DNA of 64,000 bases from Phycomyces nitens. Taxonomy: Eukaryota; Mucoromycota; Mucoromycetes; Mucorales; Phycomycetaceae. Position numbers and translations under genes: made by a program. Positions 20,418 through 31,382 of the stretch are shown here, piece after piece. Location: contig JAHRBC010000010.1 of NCBI GenBank assembly GCA_022702545.1, forward strand, positions 1 through 64,000. Direction: 5' to 3'. Positions within the stretch are counted from its first letter, which is position 1. The number at the start of each line of letters is the position of its first letter. Under the pieces are notes generated by a model. The model had not been told where the DNA came from and made no database searches. It saw only the letters and a list, made by a program, of their open reading frames with translations.

Positions 20418-23400
20418 ATGAAATTACTAAAGAGTCATTCCCTTTTAAGTCTTGCTAATAGTTACGTTATTGATTCACCTCAACCTTCTAATCTTAACTA
20501 CGCGTGGAATTTCGGATCTTTACTAGCTTTATGTCTTGGAATCCAAATTGTAACAGGAGTTACTTTAGCTATGCACTATACTCCAAACATTGATCTAGCT
20601 TTCATCAGTGTAGAGCATATTATGAGAGATGTAAACTACGGATGGATGATTAGATATCTTCATGCTAATACAGCATCATTCTTCTTCCTATTTGTATATC
20701 TTCATATTGGTAGAGGATTATATTATGGATCTTATAAATCTCCTAGAGCATTACCATGGAGTATTGGTGTTATTATCTTAATTTTAATGATGGCTACTGG
20801 TTTCCTGGGTATTTTAAATATTTGCCCAAAATGGTTAGACGACGAAATGGAGGTACTCTTAATGACAAGTAATTTAATGATTTCTCCACAACTTAAATCA
20901 GTATTGGATGATCATAAGATCAAACCAATTTTAGTTTTCGAAGAACTTAATAAGGAAGAAGTTAAAGAAAATCTTAGAAACGAAACTAGAAAGAAATCTG
21001 GTATTTATGGTATTTTTAACTTAATTACGGGATATTTCTATATCGGAAGTGCTGTAACTAATAAATTTTACAGTAGATTTTACAAACACCTTATTAGAGG
21101 ACTTGGTAATAAGAATATTGCCAATGATCTTGATAAATATGGAATTGAATCTTTTGCATTTACTATTTTGGAATATTTTCCAGAGGAAGTAACTAAAAAG
21201 AATAATCCTAATTTAATAGCTTTAGAAACTTATTGGATCCAAACTTATTTACCATCATATAATATTTTACTGGAAGCTGGTAACTCTTTAGGGTATGAAC
21301 ATACCGAAGAAGTTAAACAGAAAATGAGAGATATTTATTCAGACGAGCGAAGAAAACAAATCGGTCTATTGAATAAAGATAAATCATTACCAGATTCTGT
21401 TAAATCCTTAATGAGAGAAGCAGCTTTAAATAGATCAGATGAAGTTAAACAAAAATATAGATTAGCTTCTTCTAAACCAGTAACATTATATAACGAAGAT
21501 GGAACAGTTTATATGAAATTTGAAGGAATTAGAGTTATGGCTAAACACTTTGGGTGCGACCATAAAACAATTAATAAATTCATTAATTCAGAGAAATTAT
21601 TTAAAAAACAATGGTATGTTAGATTAGACTAACTACCATATGTCATGAGAGGACTCCGGGCCCCGCGTAGCGGGGCCCGGGGTCTCTCGGGGGGCGGCTT
21701 TGCCGCCCCCCTCGGACTCATTTATAATTTAATCATAGTCTTACGTCGGAGAATTATGCAATCTATACAGAGAAATAATTCAGTAGCGTAAAATACCCTG
21801 ACAGGGGTATTGAAGAGCAGAACGATCTCTTTGGCTATATCGATGAAAACGGTCAAAGATTAGACATCTTTTTCAAGACCGTCGGTGGTGTATACCATCG
21901 CTACAGACTGGGTCATCGATAGGTGCCTGAAATGGTGCTTAATGTACAGTCGGATTTCCGAGAATCTTGTCCCTATTCTCCACAAGGCCTTAGGTGATAT
22001 TTACTAGAAAGAGAACTAACGAGCTCAAGGATTAGTAAATTGATAAGGTACATGAAATATAGACCAGATGTCAATAAATGGTGTCTATATTTTGGAAATT
22101 GTATGTTTTACCTTGGGGTCAAATGAGTCTATGGGGAGCAACAGTAATTACTAATTTACTTTCTGCTATCCCTTGGATTGGTAAAGATTTAGTAGAATTC
22201 GAGCCTTTAGAAAATGGGTCTATTTATTCAAATATCGTAGAATTAAGTATTTTACCTGTTATCGGTACTGTTAATAGTAAAGCCATGAATAAGATTAAAC
22301 TTCGAACAGAAAAAGAAAAATTAGAGGCCCGGCCGGGCGACCCATCGCCCGGTTGGGCTCCGGCCGGCCCGCCCGGCCCGAGGCACTAAAAATTTCTAAG
22401 AGTTTTCTAGCTATGCTTGTTGGTTTAATCGATGGTGACGGATATATCGCCATTACTAAAACACCAAAAGATTATATTAGAATTGATCTTGTTATCTCTT
22501 TAGATTTAAGAGATCGTCGGCCGCGCAGCGGCCGGGATCGTCGCGCTGCGCGGCCCCTCGGATCTAGATTTACTTAACTATATTCACTCGGTGCTTAAAG
22601 TAGGTCGAATTAATAAATATCCTAAATCGAATCTTGTTAAGTTAACTATTCCTAGAACAGATTTACAAACAATTTTATTTCCTCTGTTTATTTATTACAA
22701 TTTATACTTTTTAACAGAAACACGAAGAGCTCAATACGATAAAGTATTGTTTATTCTTCAATCTAATCTTAAAAAGTATTCGGAACTACCTAAAGAATTC
22801 CCAGTTTATAATAATTTACCTGTAACTGCAAGTGGTTATAGTGAATTAGATTTCTTTAAAAACTGGACTGTTGGTTTTACAATGGCTTCAGGATCATTCT
22901 TTATGAAAAATAATAAGGATATTTGTTTTTCGTTAAAACAACGAACACATGAATTATTATTCGAAGCATTCAGAATTATTTTTGATACAAAAGTAAAAAT
23001 CAATAACTTTGATGGCTATTCTCAATTTATGGTTAGTTCTATTAAAGATCTTCAAACAGTAGTTAATTTCTTTTCTTTCTCAGATTTACATCCTCTTGTT
23101 GGTTATAAATTAACACAATATGAAGTATGGTTAAATCAGATTCAAGAACATCCGCGATATAAAAATATTAACTTACCTTAACGATAACATTGGGTAAAGA
23201 CTTACGACTTAATAGATAAAATAAAATTAAACATTCATTTTCTAAAACCTGGGATATACATCCTGGGTATTAATCCCCGAAGCTTTTATGGCTTGGGGAT
23301 TAATAATATTATGAGTTCCATTAAGCTTTAAAAAGCTTAATTGCAAATTGGGTGAATTGCAAGAAACTCTCTATTTATAGAGACAATTTGCAGCGAAGCA

Positions 23401-26400
23401 TACATCAGTGTTTTAATAGATGTATGAACGTTCAACGACTAATCAGTGAGCTACACTAGCAATAATCTGGACACGAGTGCCCAACGACATAGCCAACTTA
23501 TTAATGGACAATACATTTAAGTTAGGAATGGTCGATGACATAGTCTAAACTTATTAGTGATAATAAGAAGGTACAGTTAAATGCTGTACCGATAATAATA
23601 TTGTCATCTGGGGTGGTTTTAGCGTAGATAATGCTACTCTAAACCGATTCTTCAGTCTTCACTACTTATTACCATTCATTCTAGCTGCTCTAGCAGTAAT
23701 GCATTTAATTACTCTACACGAACATGGATCAAGTAACCCATTAGGAATTACAGCAAATGCTGATAGACTTTATATGCATCCTTATTATACATTTAAAGAT
23801 CTAGTAACTATTTTCTTATTCTTCTTAGTACTAGGATTATTCTTATTCTATGCTCCTAATAAACTAGGTCAAACTTCCGGGATGGCCGTTCAACAGTGTA
23901 AATTGTTGAATTATAATATCGCTGTATGCTGGGACAGTTTAGATATAACTTGTACTCGAAATGTAAGTGCAATCTTAGTGCCCTTTTCAGTAAAAATCAA
24001 TTATATTGCAGACCAATCAGCAGGAAACCAACAAAATACTAATCGTATGTTGGGCTCCTCAGAGACTACACGCGATATTTCCGATTTAACTTTATCTAAG
24101 TCGGATACAAAAGATATTCATGATTTAGATAATAATGAAAATTTTAATTATTGGCTCGCCGGACTAATCGACGGCGATGGAACATTATCTGTCTATAAAA
24201 ACAACGCCCAAGCCTGTGAAATTACTTTAGGCGAAGAAGATGTTAAAACTTTACACAAAATTAAAGAAAGATTCCATGGATCTGTTTTAAAGAGAAGTAA
24301 AGTTAAAGCTTATAGATGAAGAGTTTATAAAAAACTGTATGTAACAAATGTTGTTAATTCAATTAATGGTAAATTATTAACCGATTCAAAACACGTACAA
24401 TTAGTTAAAATCTGTAATAAATTAAACATTGAACCAATTACTAATAATAAAATTAGTAAAGACAATAGTTGGTTCACTGGATTTTTTGACGCAGAAGGTT
24501 ATTTTAGTATTAGAAATAACTATACTTTAACAATTAGCGTAAGCCAAAAATAAAGAAATTTTAGAAGAAATTCAAAAAGTTTTTGGAATTGGTAATATTT
24601 ATTATGATAAAAGCTGGAATGGCTATAATTATGTCATTACAGATTTACAAGGAATTAAAACAATGCTTGCATATTTTGAACAATATGGATTAAAAACAAT
24701 AAAACATACAGATTTCATTACAATAAGAAGATTGGTATTGTTTATTGAAAGAGGTTATCATTTAAAAAATCATCCTCTCAAATATAGAATTGATAACTTA
24801 ATTAAAATTTTCAAAAATCGGAAAAAGATATAGTCCACTAACGCATCCCGATAATTATATTCCAGCTAATCCAATGCAAACTCCTGCGTCAATTGTACCA
24901 GAGTGGTTAAAAGATGCCTCTCTTTAAAAATCTCGCTATATGCTTGGAAATCCTTCCCATTATCGCATCGATACTTTAAAGTAACAACTCGATCGAGAAA
25001 GGCTACAAGCAAGTAAAAATTATAAATTTGACTTCAGAGATTGCACGCGAGATGTAGATATAAATCTACAAAGATACAATCCAAACTTAATTGGATCCCC
25101 AATGGGATCTTCTTTGTACAATTTGTTTTTATAGTACTTCAACAAAAGGAAAAAAGATTGTCAAGAGAAGAAAGACAACTTATCAAGTTGTCTTCCAATA
25201 GTTCTCAAGCACTTATTGGTATTTTACTTGGAGATGGTCATCTTCAAAAAAGATCTTCAACAGCTAATAGCAGATTTATGTTTGCTCAAACATCTGTAGA
25301 TCACAAAGCTTATTATGAATTTGTGTTTAAATTATTTGAGCCATACTGTACAGCTGATATGAAATCATATTTAAAAACTTGGACAGACAAAAGATATGGA
25401 AAGGTTTATCAATCATTATCTTTTGCTACGATGGCTTTACCTTGTTTTAATGTTTTTAGAGAATCTTTTATCCAAATGGGAAAAATTGTACCCGTCAACA
25501 TCGGTGAGTTGTTGACGGATATTAGTTTAGCTCATTGGATTATGGATGATGGATCTAAACAAGGAAAAGGTATTCACCTAAATGTATATGCTTTTTCTGA
25601 AGAAGACATTAAAAGACTTACTGATACATTATCCAATAAATTTGGATTAAAGTGTTCTGTTCATACACCTAAAAATAAACCAAGAATTTATTTAAAAGCT
25701 GAATCAATGATTCAGTTGAGAACTATTGTGAAACATCATATGCATCCTTCGATGTATTACAAAATTGATTTAATCAATTAAGTGAAGATCTTCTACCTTT
25801 CTATGCAATTTTACGATCTATTCCTGATAAATTAGGAGGAGTAATTGCTATGTTTGGTTCTCTATTAATTCTTCTAGCTATGCCAGTATTAGATACTTCA
25901 AGAGTTAGAGGTTCAGCTTTCCGACCATTAATGAAATTAGCTTTCTGGCTATTAGTAGTAGATTTCTTAATCTTACTATGGTGTGGTGGATTTTAATTGA
26001 CTGCCGTTCCTGTGGATTCTATGAACCACGGAATTATTACATTACTAAATGCTAAAACATCCTTAGATATTAAGTACTTTTAAGCTTGAAAGAAGTATGT
26101 TAAATTGTATACTTGTTTGTCAAGCATAAGTAACAATCTTAATAATTGGATTATTAGCAAGAAACCTGTATTAATCAGGGATCTTCAGAGACTATACGTA
26201 ATGCCCATCGACAAAGTAGATGGTGAAGAGATAGTCCAAATCTTATTATTTAAGTATTTGTAAAGTTTAAACTTTACAAAATTATCATAAAATAAACTTA
26301 GGGTCAGCACGTAGAAGAGCCCTTTATTACTTTAGGTCAACTAGCTACTGGATTTTATTTCTCTTGGTTCTTAATTCTAGTTCCTATGATCGGAATCATT

Positions 26401-27406
26401 GAGAATACTCTTATTGATTTAGCTGGTGAACATCCAAATACTGTAATTCCAAACAGTAAATTTTCGAATAAACCTTATTTAGGTAAATCTTATTTTCATA
26501 CAAGTTGTATCCCGTCTTCAAAAAAAGTAGGTATTAAATTAACTAATGCTCAAAAAGCTTCCTATCAATTAACTCCTTATTTAGAAGAAGTTATTTTTTA
26601 GGTTGTACATTAGGAGATGGTCCTATTGAAAGACGAAGAAAATCTCTTACAGCTAATAGTAGATTAAGATTTGAACAATCTACTATTAATAAAGATTACC
26701 TATTTCATCTTTATGAATTATTTAAACCTTATTGCGTATCCGCTCCTGCTGAACGAGTAAGAACAAGAAAAGATGGTTCGAAATTTGAAGGAATTCATAC
26801 TGCTTGGTATTTTGGTACTTTGACTTTACCCGGGTTTAATCTTTTTCGAGAACTTTTTATACCGCTGAGGGTAAAAAAGTAATTCCAACAAATATTAAAC
26901 AATTATTAACACCAGTAAGTTTAGCTTATTGGGCTATGGACGATGGAACAAAACATTCTTCTGGATTCAGATTACAGACTGATTCTTATTCAGAAAATGA
27001 AGTCAAATTGCTTGTAAAAACATTGCAAGACAAATTTGAACCCTAATGTTCTTACAGTCTAATAAAAGGGAAACCTGTGATTTATATTTTTGCAAAATCA
27101 TTACCAAAATTTAAATCTATTGTAAAACCTTATTTTCATAATAGTATGTTATATAAATTAAATAGTTAATATTAACTATTTAATACACTTTTCGTTGCTA
27201 AAATCTAAGATTTATTTTATTTATTCAAAATAATAAGATTGGGTCAACATGTTGAAGAGCCATTCATTACTTTAGGACAATTTGCAACAGGATTCTACTT
27301 TGCTTGGTTCTTAATTTTATTACCAGCAATTGGAATTATTGAAAATACTCTAATGGACTTAGCTCCTGAGAATAATGATAAATACCCGTCGACACTCCAA
27401 GATTAA
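20418..27406 (+). CDS. cob: Cytochrome b (six exons, five group I introns)
   Basis: Membrane core of complex III, carrying both b hemes. Exons: 20418-20810, 22102-22198, 23604-23869, 24844-24907, 25788-25987 and 27242-27406, joining to 394 residues, a normal length. Each exon ends in T and each intron in G, as group I introns require. Heme ligands are visible in exons 1 and 3 (HAN and HL contexts), and the Qo loop PDNYIPANP starts exon 4. An alternative 3' exon at 26302-26424 would give a different C-terminus fused to an endonuclease. All tryptophans are TGG. Confidence 0.93.
20811..21632 (+). CDS. GIY-YIG endonuclease of cob intron 1
   Basis: The ORF continues in frame from cob exon 1. GIY-YIG motif at [19 protein letters not shown], followed by the downstream Arg (SRFYKH) and Glu (ALETYWI), then a NUMOD-like repeat tail. 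Intron 20811-22101 ends with G. Its core at 21830-21975 (aaaacggtc...gaccgt, ctacagactgggtc) is group I. Probably translated from unspliced RNA and trimmed. Confidence 0.88.
22324..22384. mobile_element. Double-hairpin insertion in cob intron 2 ORF (a)
   Basis: GC-rich double hairpin flanked by direct repeats GAGGC (22324-22328 and 22380-22384). The net insertion of 56 nt shifts the frame. Confidence 0.75.
22512..22564. mobile_element. Double-hairpin insertion in cob intron 2 ORF (b)
   Basis: Flanked by GATC (22512-22515, 22561-22564). The 5' end GTCGGCCGCGCAGCGGCCG and the terminal CCCCTCG match the element at 52434-52492, so both belong to one family. The net 49 nt shifts the frame. Confidence 0.8.
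23870..24833 (+). pseudogene. LAGLIDADG endonuclease of cob intron 3, with TGA and a frameshift
   Basis: Continues from exon 3. The ORF first runs through the intron core (CAGCAGGAAAC near 24018, CAGAGACTACACG near 24060). It then has motif 1 [15 protein letters not shown] and, after the breaks, motif 2 [17 protein letters not shown] at 24317-24319 stands where the family has Trp (YR-W-R). A TAA at 24550 follows an A-run and marks a frameshift, after which the homologous frame continues to 24833. Intron 23870-24843. Likely inactive, or foreign code plus one sequence error. Confidence 0.82.
25041..25781 (+). CDS. LAGLIDADG endonuclease of cob intron 4
   Basis: Member of the LAGLIDADG_2 type. 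Motif 1 is [11 protein letters not shown] (about residues 57-67) and motif 2 [11 protein letters not shown] (about 165-175). The length fits a two-motif monomer. It is not joined to exon 4 and ends 6 nt before the intron end. Intron 24908-25787. Related to the endonuclease at 26425-27169. Confidence 0.85.
25988..26301 (+). other. cob group I intron 5, ORF-less form
   Basis: 314 nt between GGT (exon 5) and the first of two possible 3' exons. The core signature TTCAGAGACTATACGTAATG lies near 26185, and the intron ends in G. If the second 3' exon is used, the intron extends to 27241 and includes the exon copy and endonuclease. No ORF in the short form. Confidence 0.75.
26302..27169 (+). pseudogene. 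Second cob 3' exon fused to a LAGLIDADG endonuclease (element-borne C-terminus)
   Basis: 26302-26424 encodes the last cytochrome b segment ([12 protein letters not shown]...ENTLIDLA). About 35 of 41 residues match the exon at 27242. It then continues in frame into an endonuclease with motifs GCTLGDGP and AYWAMDDGT. The reading frame needs one extra T at the T-run near 26594-26599 and another near 26850. A TAA lies near 27044. This resembles the Allomyces atp6 case, in which a foreign C-terminus came with an endonuclease gene. Which 3' exon is used in vivo is not decidable here. Confidence 0.78.
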
Positions 27407-28593
27407 AGGATGGACGGAAACAAAATAGTTTCGTTATTAATCCGAATTCGGATTAATTAATCATCTTTATTGAGAAAACATCAAAATACATCTTGATTCT
27501 TCTCACTAAGTCGTCTAATTGAGAATATTGAAGTATTTGATAATTCTTTATCTTGGGGGCGGACTTTGTCCGCCCCTCGTTCCCCAATTGGGAGCGAGGA
27601 AAGCGCGAAGCGCTTTCCGGGGCCGCGTGGGGGGGCCCCACGGCAACGTGGGGCCCCCCCCCAGCTTCGCTCGCGGGGTCCGGGTCCCCCCCGATTTTCT
27701 CGGGGGGGAATCGAGAAAGACTGGGTTAAATCTACTTAGATCGAAATTTTTCTTTGTAGGTTAAATTTATTATTTACCCGAGGGGGGCCTTCGGCCCCCC
27801 GAGAGGTCCACGGAGAATTGGGTTTATCCCAATTCTAAGTGGACCCTTAAAATTAATCACCACCCCCTCGATACCTGATTTATGCCTTCTCGTGGCGGTA
27901 TTGTAAGTAAAGATCATCTTGAAACTAAATAAATCATTGAACAAACCCCGAGGGGGGCCGCGTAGCGGCCCCCCGGGGGGCCCGAACATTATCACCCCTC
28001 CCTTTTTTATTGATTTAAACCTTTACTAAGATTAATTTGGCCCCCTTACTAATCCCCTTAATTAAATAACTGGATACACTTAGTTACGAGAAAGAGATTG
28101 ATTTAAACCCTTTATCATAAAGGCTATTGGAATTTCTTCACTGACCCCTTTGACTTCTTCCTCTTTCGAGGTTGAACTCTCCACGATTCCATAAGTACCC
28201 GTCCAAATGGGAAACCAAAAGATATTTCAAATTTTTCATCTTATATTTTCCTAGATTTACTAATGTTGTATGCATGATGTTAGGACCTAGAAAGTAGGCT
28301 TTGACCCAAAGCTAGAAGACGGACTAGAGAAGGTAGTCTGCTTATTATTTAATAAACTAAATAATTAATTATTCTAAATCCCCTTATAATACTATAGATC
28401 CGAGGGGGCGCTAAAGAAAACCTTTATGGATTGGAGAGGTTTTAAGCCAGAGGAACCCCCCGCCGTTTCGCTATTAAAATAAACCTTCCCCCAATTGGGC
28501 ACCGCCCCAATTGGGTCTTATTAAAGAATATAATTCCGCAGGGGCCCCCTCGATTCTTCGAATCTTTGGATATTAGAGTTTATCAATAAAAAT
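27407..28593. other. GC-hairpin-rich spacer after cob
   Basis: No gene recognised. Hairpins at 27553-27578, 27597-27620, 27633-27662, 27690-27712, 27780-27803 and 27950-27985. One copy of the 'CCATAAGTACC' element (about 28165-28235, diverged). No tRNA until trnR(UCU). Confidence 0.6.
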
Positions 28594-29901: not shown

Positions 29902-30713
29902 TTATCCTCCCCACCAGTAAACACTGATGAATAGGAATAACCATACTACATCTACAAAATGCCAATAAAGAATTGCTTGCTCAAATCCTAAATGATGATG
30001 ATCAGTTAGATGGTAAGACAATACTCTAAATAATCCTACAGTTAAGAAGATTGTACCGATCACAACGTGAATTCCGTGAAATCCAGTAGCCATATAGAAT
30101 GTAGAACCATAAACACCATCACTAAATGTGAATGGAGCATTGTAATACTCAAATCCTTGGAAACCTGTGAAGATAGTAGCTAAAACTACAGTAGCAATTA
30201 ATCCATAAATAACTCCTGCTCTGTTACCTTGGATTAGGCTATGATGAGCATAAGTTACAGTAGCACCTGAAGAAAGTAGAATTACTGTATTTAATAGTGG
30301 TACCTCCCAAGGATTTAGTGTCTCAATACCAGCTGGTGGCCAGTGAGCTCCTAATTCAACTGTTGGAGCTAGAGATGAATGGAAGAATGCCCAGAAAATA
30401 CTAATGAAGAAGAATACTTCTGAAATTACAAATAGAACAAAACCTAAGCTTAATCCTTTTGTACTGCAAAAGTATGATGTCCTTGGAAAGTACCTTCTCG
30501 AGTAATATCTTTAAACCATAATGTCATAGTAGCAATTGTCGAGATTAATCCAAGAGTTAATAAGAATAAACCATTAGAGTATCCATGGAATGTCATTACC
30601 CCTGATAGAGTTGTAACTAATAAAGAAAATGATACTGCAATTGGCCAAGGCGAAGCTTCAACTAAATGGAATGGATGCGCCTGAACTGATCTGTTAATTA
30701 ATTTTGTTGTCAT
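29902..30713 (-). CDS. cox3: Cytochrome c oxidase subunit 3, one-base frameshift
   Basis: Subunit III of complex IV. The ATG at 30711-30713 starts [24 protein letters not shown], a standard N-terminus. The frame is open to about 30450, where GHHTFAVQK runs into a stop. One more A in the CAAAAGG run restores the frame, which then runs through the typical [21 protein letters not shown] and [14 protein letters not shown] segments to YWWGG-stop. The repaired length would be 270 residues. Sequence error or an unusual frameshift; no intron. ATATAAGTA lies 366 nt upstream. Confidence 0.93.
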
Positions 30714-31382
30714 ATTGTATATGTAAATACCTATCATACATTTCCCCCCTTCGACTCGATGCCCCCCGAATCAAAGATTCGGGGGCATCGATAAGTGAAA
30801 TTTATCACTGGGGGGGGCCCGCGCAGCGGGCCCCCCGGAGATCGGGAGCGGCGGCCGCTCCCGTTCTCAAGACTAGAAGGGGGGAAACGTCAATAATAAA
30901 TTATTGAAATAGTAGTTTATCTCTTTTTAACACCCTACCCAAGGTTTAGACCCCAATTGCGCCCAACTCTGCGAGAGCTGAGAGGGCCCAATTGGGGTCA
31001 GGGGCTCTGCCCCCTGGATTAAACCCCGGGTGGGAAATAAGTTAAATTTTTTTGTGCTTATGAGTCAGCATTCAACCTTTACTTATATTAATGGAATCGG
31101 AATAACATTGGAATTGGGAACAAAGAATCGGAGGTATTTCCAATGGTGGCCCCTAATCGAATTATAAAGCTCGGCGCGGGGCGAAGTAAAAATCAATTTC
31201 TTTATTTTTATAAAATTTAAATTTAGCCCCGCGACGAACAACGGGGGTGGCTCTTTAATGTATTCTTAAGCCCTTTATAGACATAAAAGAGAGCTGAGGG
31301 GGCCCCACGCTGCCGTGGGGCCCTCAATTGCCCCGGAAAGCGCGTAGCGCTTTCCTCGCCTAATTATCAAGAAATGAATTGA
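30714..31382. other. Spacer upstream of cox3
   Basis: Hairpins at 30752-30790 and 30809-30862, a GC-stem/AT-loop hairpin at 31174-31236 and hairpins at 31296-31355. The promoter-like motif at 31080-31088 points to cox3. No gene recognised. Confidence 0.55.
31080..31088 (-). promoter_or_regulatory. ATATAAGTA promoter-like motif, cox3
   Basis: Exact motif on the reverse strand upstream of cox3, no gene between. Confidence 0.5.

Follow-up and report, generated by a model that had tools for sequence, protein, structure and literature searches.

Two diverged 3' exons of cob flank a homing endonuclease gene behind a single group I intron core in a mucoralean mitochondrial genome

The mitochondrial cytochrome b gene (cob) in a 64,000-nucleotide stretch of Phycomyces nitens DNA (contig JAHRBC010000010.1, positions 1 to 64,000 of the forward strand; hereafter the window) was found to end in two diverged versions of its last exon, which lie behind one group I intron core and have a LAGLIDADG_2 homing endonuclease gene between them. 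The copy nearer to the core is called exon A and the distal copy exon B. On balance, it is somewhat probable that positions 25988–27241 constitute one group I intron with exon B as its regular 3' exon, and that the loop of its P9 stem holds an endonuclease cassette which carries exon A together with a usable 3' splice site. It belongs to a fungal mitochondrial contig of 187,003 bases (G000:C2; the assembly comprises 49 Mb in 11 contigs), on which the cob region is present twice, the copies being ∼72.2 kb apart. With nad4 of the window, the closest named matches were those of Dichotomocladium elegans (97%), Absidia glauca (96%) and Gongronella (95%), and one match of 100% is encoded on a contig of 66,542 bases.

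Two copies of the cob 3' exon behind one group I core

An earlier note on this DNA, made from the sequence alone, had described a short group I intron after exon 5 and two cob 3' exons behind it, each following a G, each beginning with GGTCA and agreeing at about 35 of 41 residues, the second with a clean stop. All of these observations were confirmed. The Rfam match to a group I core sets in at the end of exon 5, both 3' exons are present in both contig copies, each with the preceding G and the initial GGTCA, and exon B ends with TAA. Identity between exons A and B amounted to 36/41 residues and 96/123 bases, and at the first, second and third codon positions to 36, 40 and 20 of 41. By the Nei-Gojobori method, synonymous divergence (dS) was 2.68, which is saturated, and nonsynonymous divergence (dN) was 0.075. 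Because the synonymous sites are saturated and protein identity is 88%, the two copies have long been separated, under selection at the protein level. Outside the inverted repeats, they were the sole diverged duplicate of a core gene found in the 80-kb unit of the contig (at least 50% identity, E up to 1e-3), so the duplication is more than chance.

The two contig copies were compared from 20,000 to ∼33,500 (∼13.5 kb), and the differences amounted to 3 substitutions plus 49 indel bases, of which 37 were located at runs of at least 4 equal bases. Exons 1, 3 and 5 of cob, the core of the intron, both 3' exons and the open extension of exon A were free of differences. The same exon A peptide was also found beside the endonuclease in P0242 (Mucor saturninus INT47_004843), which is encoded by another contig, 66,542 bases long. 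The genome itself was searched at the DNA level for nuclear copies in which an older arrangement might be preserved; among the best candidates, which alone are scored in such a search, were the two mitochondrial copies and a 28-base palindromic self-match in each. No relatives were confirmed in the viral contig collection with protein-derived patterns, nor in the genome and viral contig collections with one exact degenerate pattern.

The region contains one group I core and not two, as no second group I match was obtained from Rfam in 25900–27500 at E up to 10. Two separate introns flanking exon A were also considered and ruled out, since there was no second match in 26425–27241 and the distance from the end of the endonuclease open reading frame (ORF) to exon B is 72 bases. 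In the fold of 25970–26320, P1 was formed with a wobble pair between U25987 and G26003 at the 5' splice site. The guide strand UUGACU can pair with GGUCAG of exon A at –4.9 kcal/mol and with GGUCAA of exon B at –5.2 kcal/mol, so that both 3' sites are compatible with P10. The traits of a group I intron, namely the U-G wobble in P1, P10 with the 3' exon and the terminal G, were all found at the locus. These RNA signals suggest compatibility with splicing to either copy.

A helix between the intron core and exon B

A feature that had gone unnoticed in the earlier note is a helix of 13 Watson-Crick pairs, which links the intron core to exon B. Its 5' strand directly follows P7, and its 3' strand is directly adjacent to the terminal G before exon B. 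When all 15,452 G positions of the 80-kb unit were compared, a directly adjacent 13-base match was found at a single one, that of exon B, and such a match anywhere within 20 bases upstream was found at 3. Each strand of the helix occurs once per contig copy. In the fold of 25970–27260, the pair probabilities of the helix ranged from 0.56 to 1.0, with 10 of the 13 above 0.9. At the splice site of exon A, 6 pairs could be formed at best, and these were set back by 5 nt.

Inspection by eye of the core of cob intron 2 (Rfam 23291–23567) revealed that its equivalent position is occupied by a short stem (CTTATTA/TAATAAG), and for this reason the 13-bp stem is, in our reading, P9 of the intron under study. 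With the stem taken as P9, exon A and the LAGLIDADG_2 gene fall within the P9 loop and probably represent a cassette inserted there. Since the helix ties the core to the splice site of exon B, the regular 3' exon would appear to be exon B. This also supports the view that the intron, within the bounds 25988–27241 that the helix suggests, includes a copy of the exon downstream of it, a trait described for Tremella (see below).

Table 1. Features of the cob 3' region in the window
Feature	Position	Strand	Basis and remarks
cob exon 5	25788..25987	+	Ends LLWCG; 5' splice site after 25987; 67/67 residues identical in P0121 and P0134
Group I intron ribozyme core	25988..26260	+	Rfam RF00028 at 25984-26260, 47.2 bits, E 1.7e-10
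Guide sequence	25997..26007	+	P10 strand UUGACU 25997-26002, P1 strand GCCGU 26003-26007; fold of 25970-26320
5' strand of proposed P9 helix	26239..26251	+	Directly after P7; 13 Watson-Crick pairs with 27228-27240
Exon A, alternative internal copy of cob 3' exon, 41 codons	26302..26424	+	Sequence comparison; identical peptide in P0242
58-codon open extension of exon A toward the endonuclease	26425..26598	+	TAG at 26599-26601
LAGLIDADG_2 homing endonuclease gene	26601..27169	+	PF03161; frame discontinuous as assembled
3' strand of proposed P9 helix and terminal G	27228..27241	+	Helix strand 27228-27240; G 27241 at exon B splice site
Exon B, cob 3' exon, 54 codons and TAA	27242..27406	+	Intact reading frame

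The endonuclease gene and its reading frame

It had been proposed that exon A runs on into a LAGLIDADG gene, with an open fusion of cytochrome b and endonuclease as one possible product. As sequenced, the connection is not intact. The frame of exon A stays open for 58 more codons and is then closed by a TAG, behind which the endonuclease continues in a new frame; a second frame change occurs near 26854, and a stop is found at 27044–27046. An open fusion was therefore not borne out by the DNA as assembled, whose frame is broken near 26599, 26854 and 27044. The extension itself contained no stop in the frame of exon A, versus 6 and 5 in the other two frames, and 332 of 20,000 base shuffles of it were open. 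The first readable piece of the endonuclease matched PF03161 with 48.9 bits (cut-off 25; E 9.6e-13), and a search of this piece against solved structures returned nothing at E up to 0.1.

In the second contig copy, the gene was open across the middle break (166 codons, 98734–99231), while the first and the last breaks were present. The contig is an unpolished long-read assembly, one sign of which was observed in cox3 (window 29902–30810, – strand), where a one-base frame break is located near 30457 and the second contig copy is open. Since cox3 is essential and is broken in one copy and open in the other, single-base indels in this contig are partly assembly errors. Because the contig is unpolished, the breaks in the endonuclease frame may also be such errors.

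The database protein P0241, from another contig, was 94% identical to the endonuclease over 177 columns. It is open across the places of the first two breaks and includes the end of the exon A extension, so that the end of the extension runs in one frame into the same endonuclease there; its predicted start is a Met within the extension, and its own end diverges before the place of the third break. Five more distant relatives (P0243–P0247, 40–53% identical) reach the end of the domain.

Origin of the two exons

The first 22 of the 120 Cob matches listed (P0121–P0142) were tabulated, and the identities below refer to these 22. For exons 1–5 of the window, the nearest protein was P0121 (335/340), with 327/340 for Rhizopus microsporus and 289/340 for Umbelopsis nana. 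The two 3' exons gave different nearest neighbours: exon A was nearest to Rhizopus (37/41; Umbelopsis 36, P0121 34), and exon B was nearest to Umbelopsis nana (39/41; Rhizopus 35, P0121 32). The earlier note had interpreted the locus as the capture of a foreign 3' exon together with its endonuclease. The part of this claim that stood is that long-separated exons flank an endonuclease gene. The assignment of A as foreign and B as native was not supported by these comparisons, and the opposite direction is not proven.

A tree of the 3' segment was built from 41 columns of A, B and 26 database proteins (22 of the 120 Cob matches and 4 of 54 from another listing), and a tree of exons 1–5 from the window and 22 database proteins. 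A phylogeny of the 41-residue segments had been suggested earlier as a check. In the tree of the 3' segment, no supported branch held A or B, the segment being too short to settle the donor. The approximately unbiased (AU) test was applied on the 41 columns to six groupings, which were named after the identities had been seen. It rejected B with P0121 (p-AU 0.0025) and B with Rhizopus and P0121 (0.028), and it was borderline for A with P0121 (0.056) and for A with Rhizopus and P0121 (0.066). A with B (0.31) was not rejected, and B with Umbelopsis (0.47) was accepted.

Between P0121 and the window, a pair that was chosen after the matches had been seen, the differences numbered 5 of 340 residues across exons 1–5, 9 of 41 for exon B (Fisher p 1.1e-6) and 7 of 41 for exon A (5.4e-5). 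The last segment was found to evolve faster in control pairs too, for example P0133 and P0135 (8/340 versus 6/41). The step between exons 1–5 and the 3' segment hints at replacement, short of proof. The Cob protein P0134 differs strongly from the window in exon 1 (99/131) and is identical in exon 5 (67/67); it looks chimeric, which suggests exon exchange. Exchange of this part of cob has probably happened repeatedly within Mucoromycota. With the same moderate expectation that we attach to the model as a whole, A and B would have evolved apart in different lineages, the direction of transfer being a conjecture.

Codon use was compared with windows of core genes and of cob. Among the 394 core windows, 39 scored at or below exon A and 312 at or below exon B; among the 48 cob windows the corresponding numbers were 4 and 32. 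By this measure exon B appears mildly more resident-like. As proof of origin, codon use was discarded, being too weak.

Splicing model and its alternatives

In the model that we prefer, the intron core would lie at the 5' end, the 13-bp P9 stem would be split by a loop insertion of ∼976 bases, and the intron would end at exon B. The insertion would be a homing-endonuclease cassette, in which a diverged cob 3' exon (A), with its own 3' splice site, precedes the LAGLIDADG_2 gene. Regular splicing would join exon 5 to exon B and give ordinary cytochrome b, which is most likely the use of exon B. Exon A may be used at times, and occasional splicing of exon 5 to it would give a Cob-endonuclease fusion if the frame is truly open, from which the endonuclease could be released. 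Splicing to A would allow translation of the ORF behind the core despite the stops between that ORF and exon 5. A and B, diverged in separate lineages, would have been joined by the mobility of the element. A more specific form of the model is put forward tentatively and is somewhat doubtful: the locus may be a built-in 3' splice-site switch, in which one core reaches either the distant acceptor B via the 13-bp P9 helix, for plain cytochrome b, or the near acceptor A, for the fusion, with the captured exon serving as the translation lead-in for an endonuclease behind its own core.

Several observations weigh against the preferred model. The RF00028 score of the core is under the gathering score of 50, and in the long fold (25970–27260) the pair probability of P1 was just 0.30. 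The helix is A+T-rich; when the terminal 20 bases were shuffled ∼20,000 times, at least 12 pairs were reached in 29 cases, and among 2,412 control duplexes the most stable had –9.7 kcal/mol compared with –9.8 kcal/mol for the helix. Two of the breaks in the endonuclease frame are present in both contig copies. In addition, it is the inserted end that is expressed in cox2 of Glomus sp., and the native end is not (PMC3630166), whereas the helix described here points to B.

This last point leads to an alternative of the Allomyces/Glomus hybrid type, which we consider unlikely for this locus. Here the inserted exon A would be spliced to exon 5, exon B would be the displaced original end without expression, and cytochrome b would carry a C-terminal extension. 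Such an outcome would fit the order of the elements, which is that of Glomus sp. cox2, where the native end was not detected in the mRNA (PMC3630166), and also the finding that Tremella cob-i2 belonged to the cDNA (PMC7315562). It would fit as well the location of exon A, which is nearest to the core, has P10 and is preceded just upstream by a palindromic hairpin (26257–26280). What argues for exon B instead is that the 13-bp helix abuts its splice site, and that B is intact, unchanged between the copies and closed by a stop, whereas A goes 58 codons beyond the end of Cob; resident codon use also fits B better, weakly (312/394 versus 39/394 windows). Equally unlikely, in our estimate, is that exon A is a relic, with only B spliced, the site of A unused, and the endonuclease translated, now or formerly, from an internal start. 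This is compatible with the same intron bounds, and it agrees with an in-frame Met codon inside exon A, with the predicted start of P0241 (94% identical) at a Met in the extension and with the broken frame of the endonuclease as assembled. Against a relic stand the boundary of A at the exact exon junction, the G before it, its P10 pairing and the strong protein-level constraint between A and B.

A recent tandem duplication of the last exon in this lineage, which had been named earlier as a refuting outcome, is very improbable. The grouping of A and B as sisters was not rejected on the 41 columns (p-AU 0.31), but the saturated synonymous sites (dS 2.68) at 88% protein identity are at odds with a recent event, and the nearest proteins differ, Umbelopsis for B and Rhizopus for A, although on unsupported branches. 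We give still less credence to an assembly artefact, with the second exon derived from another mitochondrial type or from misassembly. In its favour, the contig is concatemeric, with inverted repeats, poor ends and an indel error in cox3. Against it, both contig copies carry the exons unchanged, the fit of the helix and of P10 extends over the entire unit, and the same exon A peptide lies beside the endonuclease on the 66,542-base contig of the Mucor saturninus record, which may represent an independent strain.

Related arrangements in other fungi

The element belongs to a known and recurrent kind, the homing-endonuclease cassette with a host exon, and cob in a mucoralean fungus is a new example of it. 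In cox2 of Glomus sp. DAOM-229456, a group I intron, an inserted C-terminus, a LAGLIDADG mobile ORF and the native C-terminus follow each other in this order (PMC3630166). The order of the elements is the same here, and in both cases the two segments have diverged in DNA. The gene is different, and a helix to the native end is not mentioned in the available text of that report (PMC3630166). In Allomyces macrogynus, atp6 likewise has a duplicated C-terminus and an endonuclease ORF between the copies, the gene being again another one (as described in PMC3630166 and PMC4019555); an additional intron with an endonuclease is mentioned for it in PMC4019555. Two traits of such mobile-ORF hybrids were found in the window, namely a diverged duplicate of the C-terminal segment and an endonuclease ORF, discontinuous as assembled, between the segments.

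The earlier note knew of no such case for cob, and this has to be revised. In Tremella fuciformis, six predicted introns duplicate the exon that comes after them (nad4-i1, nad4-i2, cox1-i2, nad3-i1, nad5-i1 and cob-i2); polymerase chain reaction on cDNA identified nad4-i2 as a true intron, and cob-i2 was present in the cDNA (PMC7315562). Tremella cob-i2 concerns the same gene and has a copy, at the 5' end of the predicted intron, that resembles the following exon; unlike there, the ribozyme core comes before the copied exon here. Endoconidiophora resinifera also has a second cob C-terminus downstream, with three degenerate LAGLIDADG ORFs between, but there the duplication is intergenic, and an alternative splice site is not described in the accessible text (PMC6279837). 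The third case is P0271 (ENA, 263 aa), in which, as here, a Cob C-terminus is in frame with a homing-endonuclease domain. Its domain is GIY-YIG and not LAGLIDADG, and the segment is continuous with the preceding Cob, with no intron at this site in the ORF.

In Phlebia radiata, cob extends 43 residues beyond the last conserved residue, and atp6 and cox2 have alternative 3' ends (PMC4019555). The protein P0257 (480 aa, on a 2,133-base contig) contains the Cob 3' exon from the same boundary, with non-Cob sequence upstream, and continues in frame into a long unrelated ORF for which no Pfam domain is listed. In the search listings and consulted passages of the open literature, with subscription journals mostly outside the coverage, neither this arrangement was encountered for cob of Mucor, nor a comparable helix or 3' acceptor.

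When a homing element includes part of its host gene, selfish DNA becomes a vehicle by which parts of essential genes are replaced between species. The present case adds cob in a mucoralean fungus, in which the ribozyme and the endonuclease lie side by side with both versions of the exon. The interesting part of it is the putative alternative choice of 3' splice site. The RNA signals at this locus make it directly testable how such an element could stay harmless and yet express its endonuclease. A further warning concerns annotations of cob and trees built from this single gene, in which 3' ends that differ in origin can be mixed.

Further observations on the contig

The contig is a concatemer, with the direct copies ∼72.2 kb apart and large inverted repeats (two copies of rns are located in the window), and its end part is merely 87–88% identical to the rest. 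Four of the 38 tRNA calls made by ARAGORN had four-base anticodons (window 1360, 35634, 38362 and 42366), possibly due to indel errors. G+C-rich clusters recur across the mitochondrial DNA (window 22330–22390, 22510–22560 and 27560–27700) and, judged by eye, break up the endonuclease region of cob intron 2. At contig positions 79892–79984 (– strand), a LAGLIDADG_2-like piece of 31 residues was found, which was 61% identical to the endonuclease of cob intron 4 (window 25671–25763). Finally, fungal-like nad4 proteins were filed under Helobdella robusta and Vibrio parahaemolyticus (P0040 and P0083; 99% over 63% of the query, and 61%), which is likely contamination of these records.

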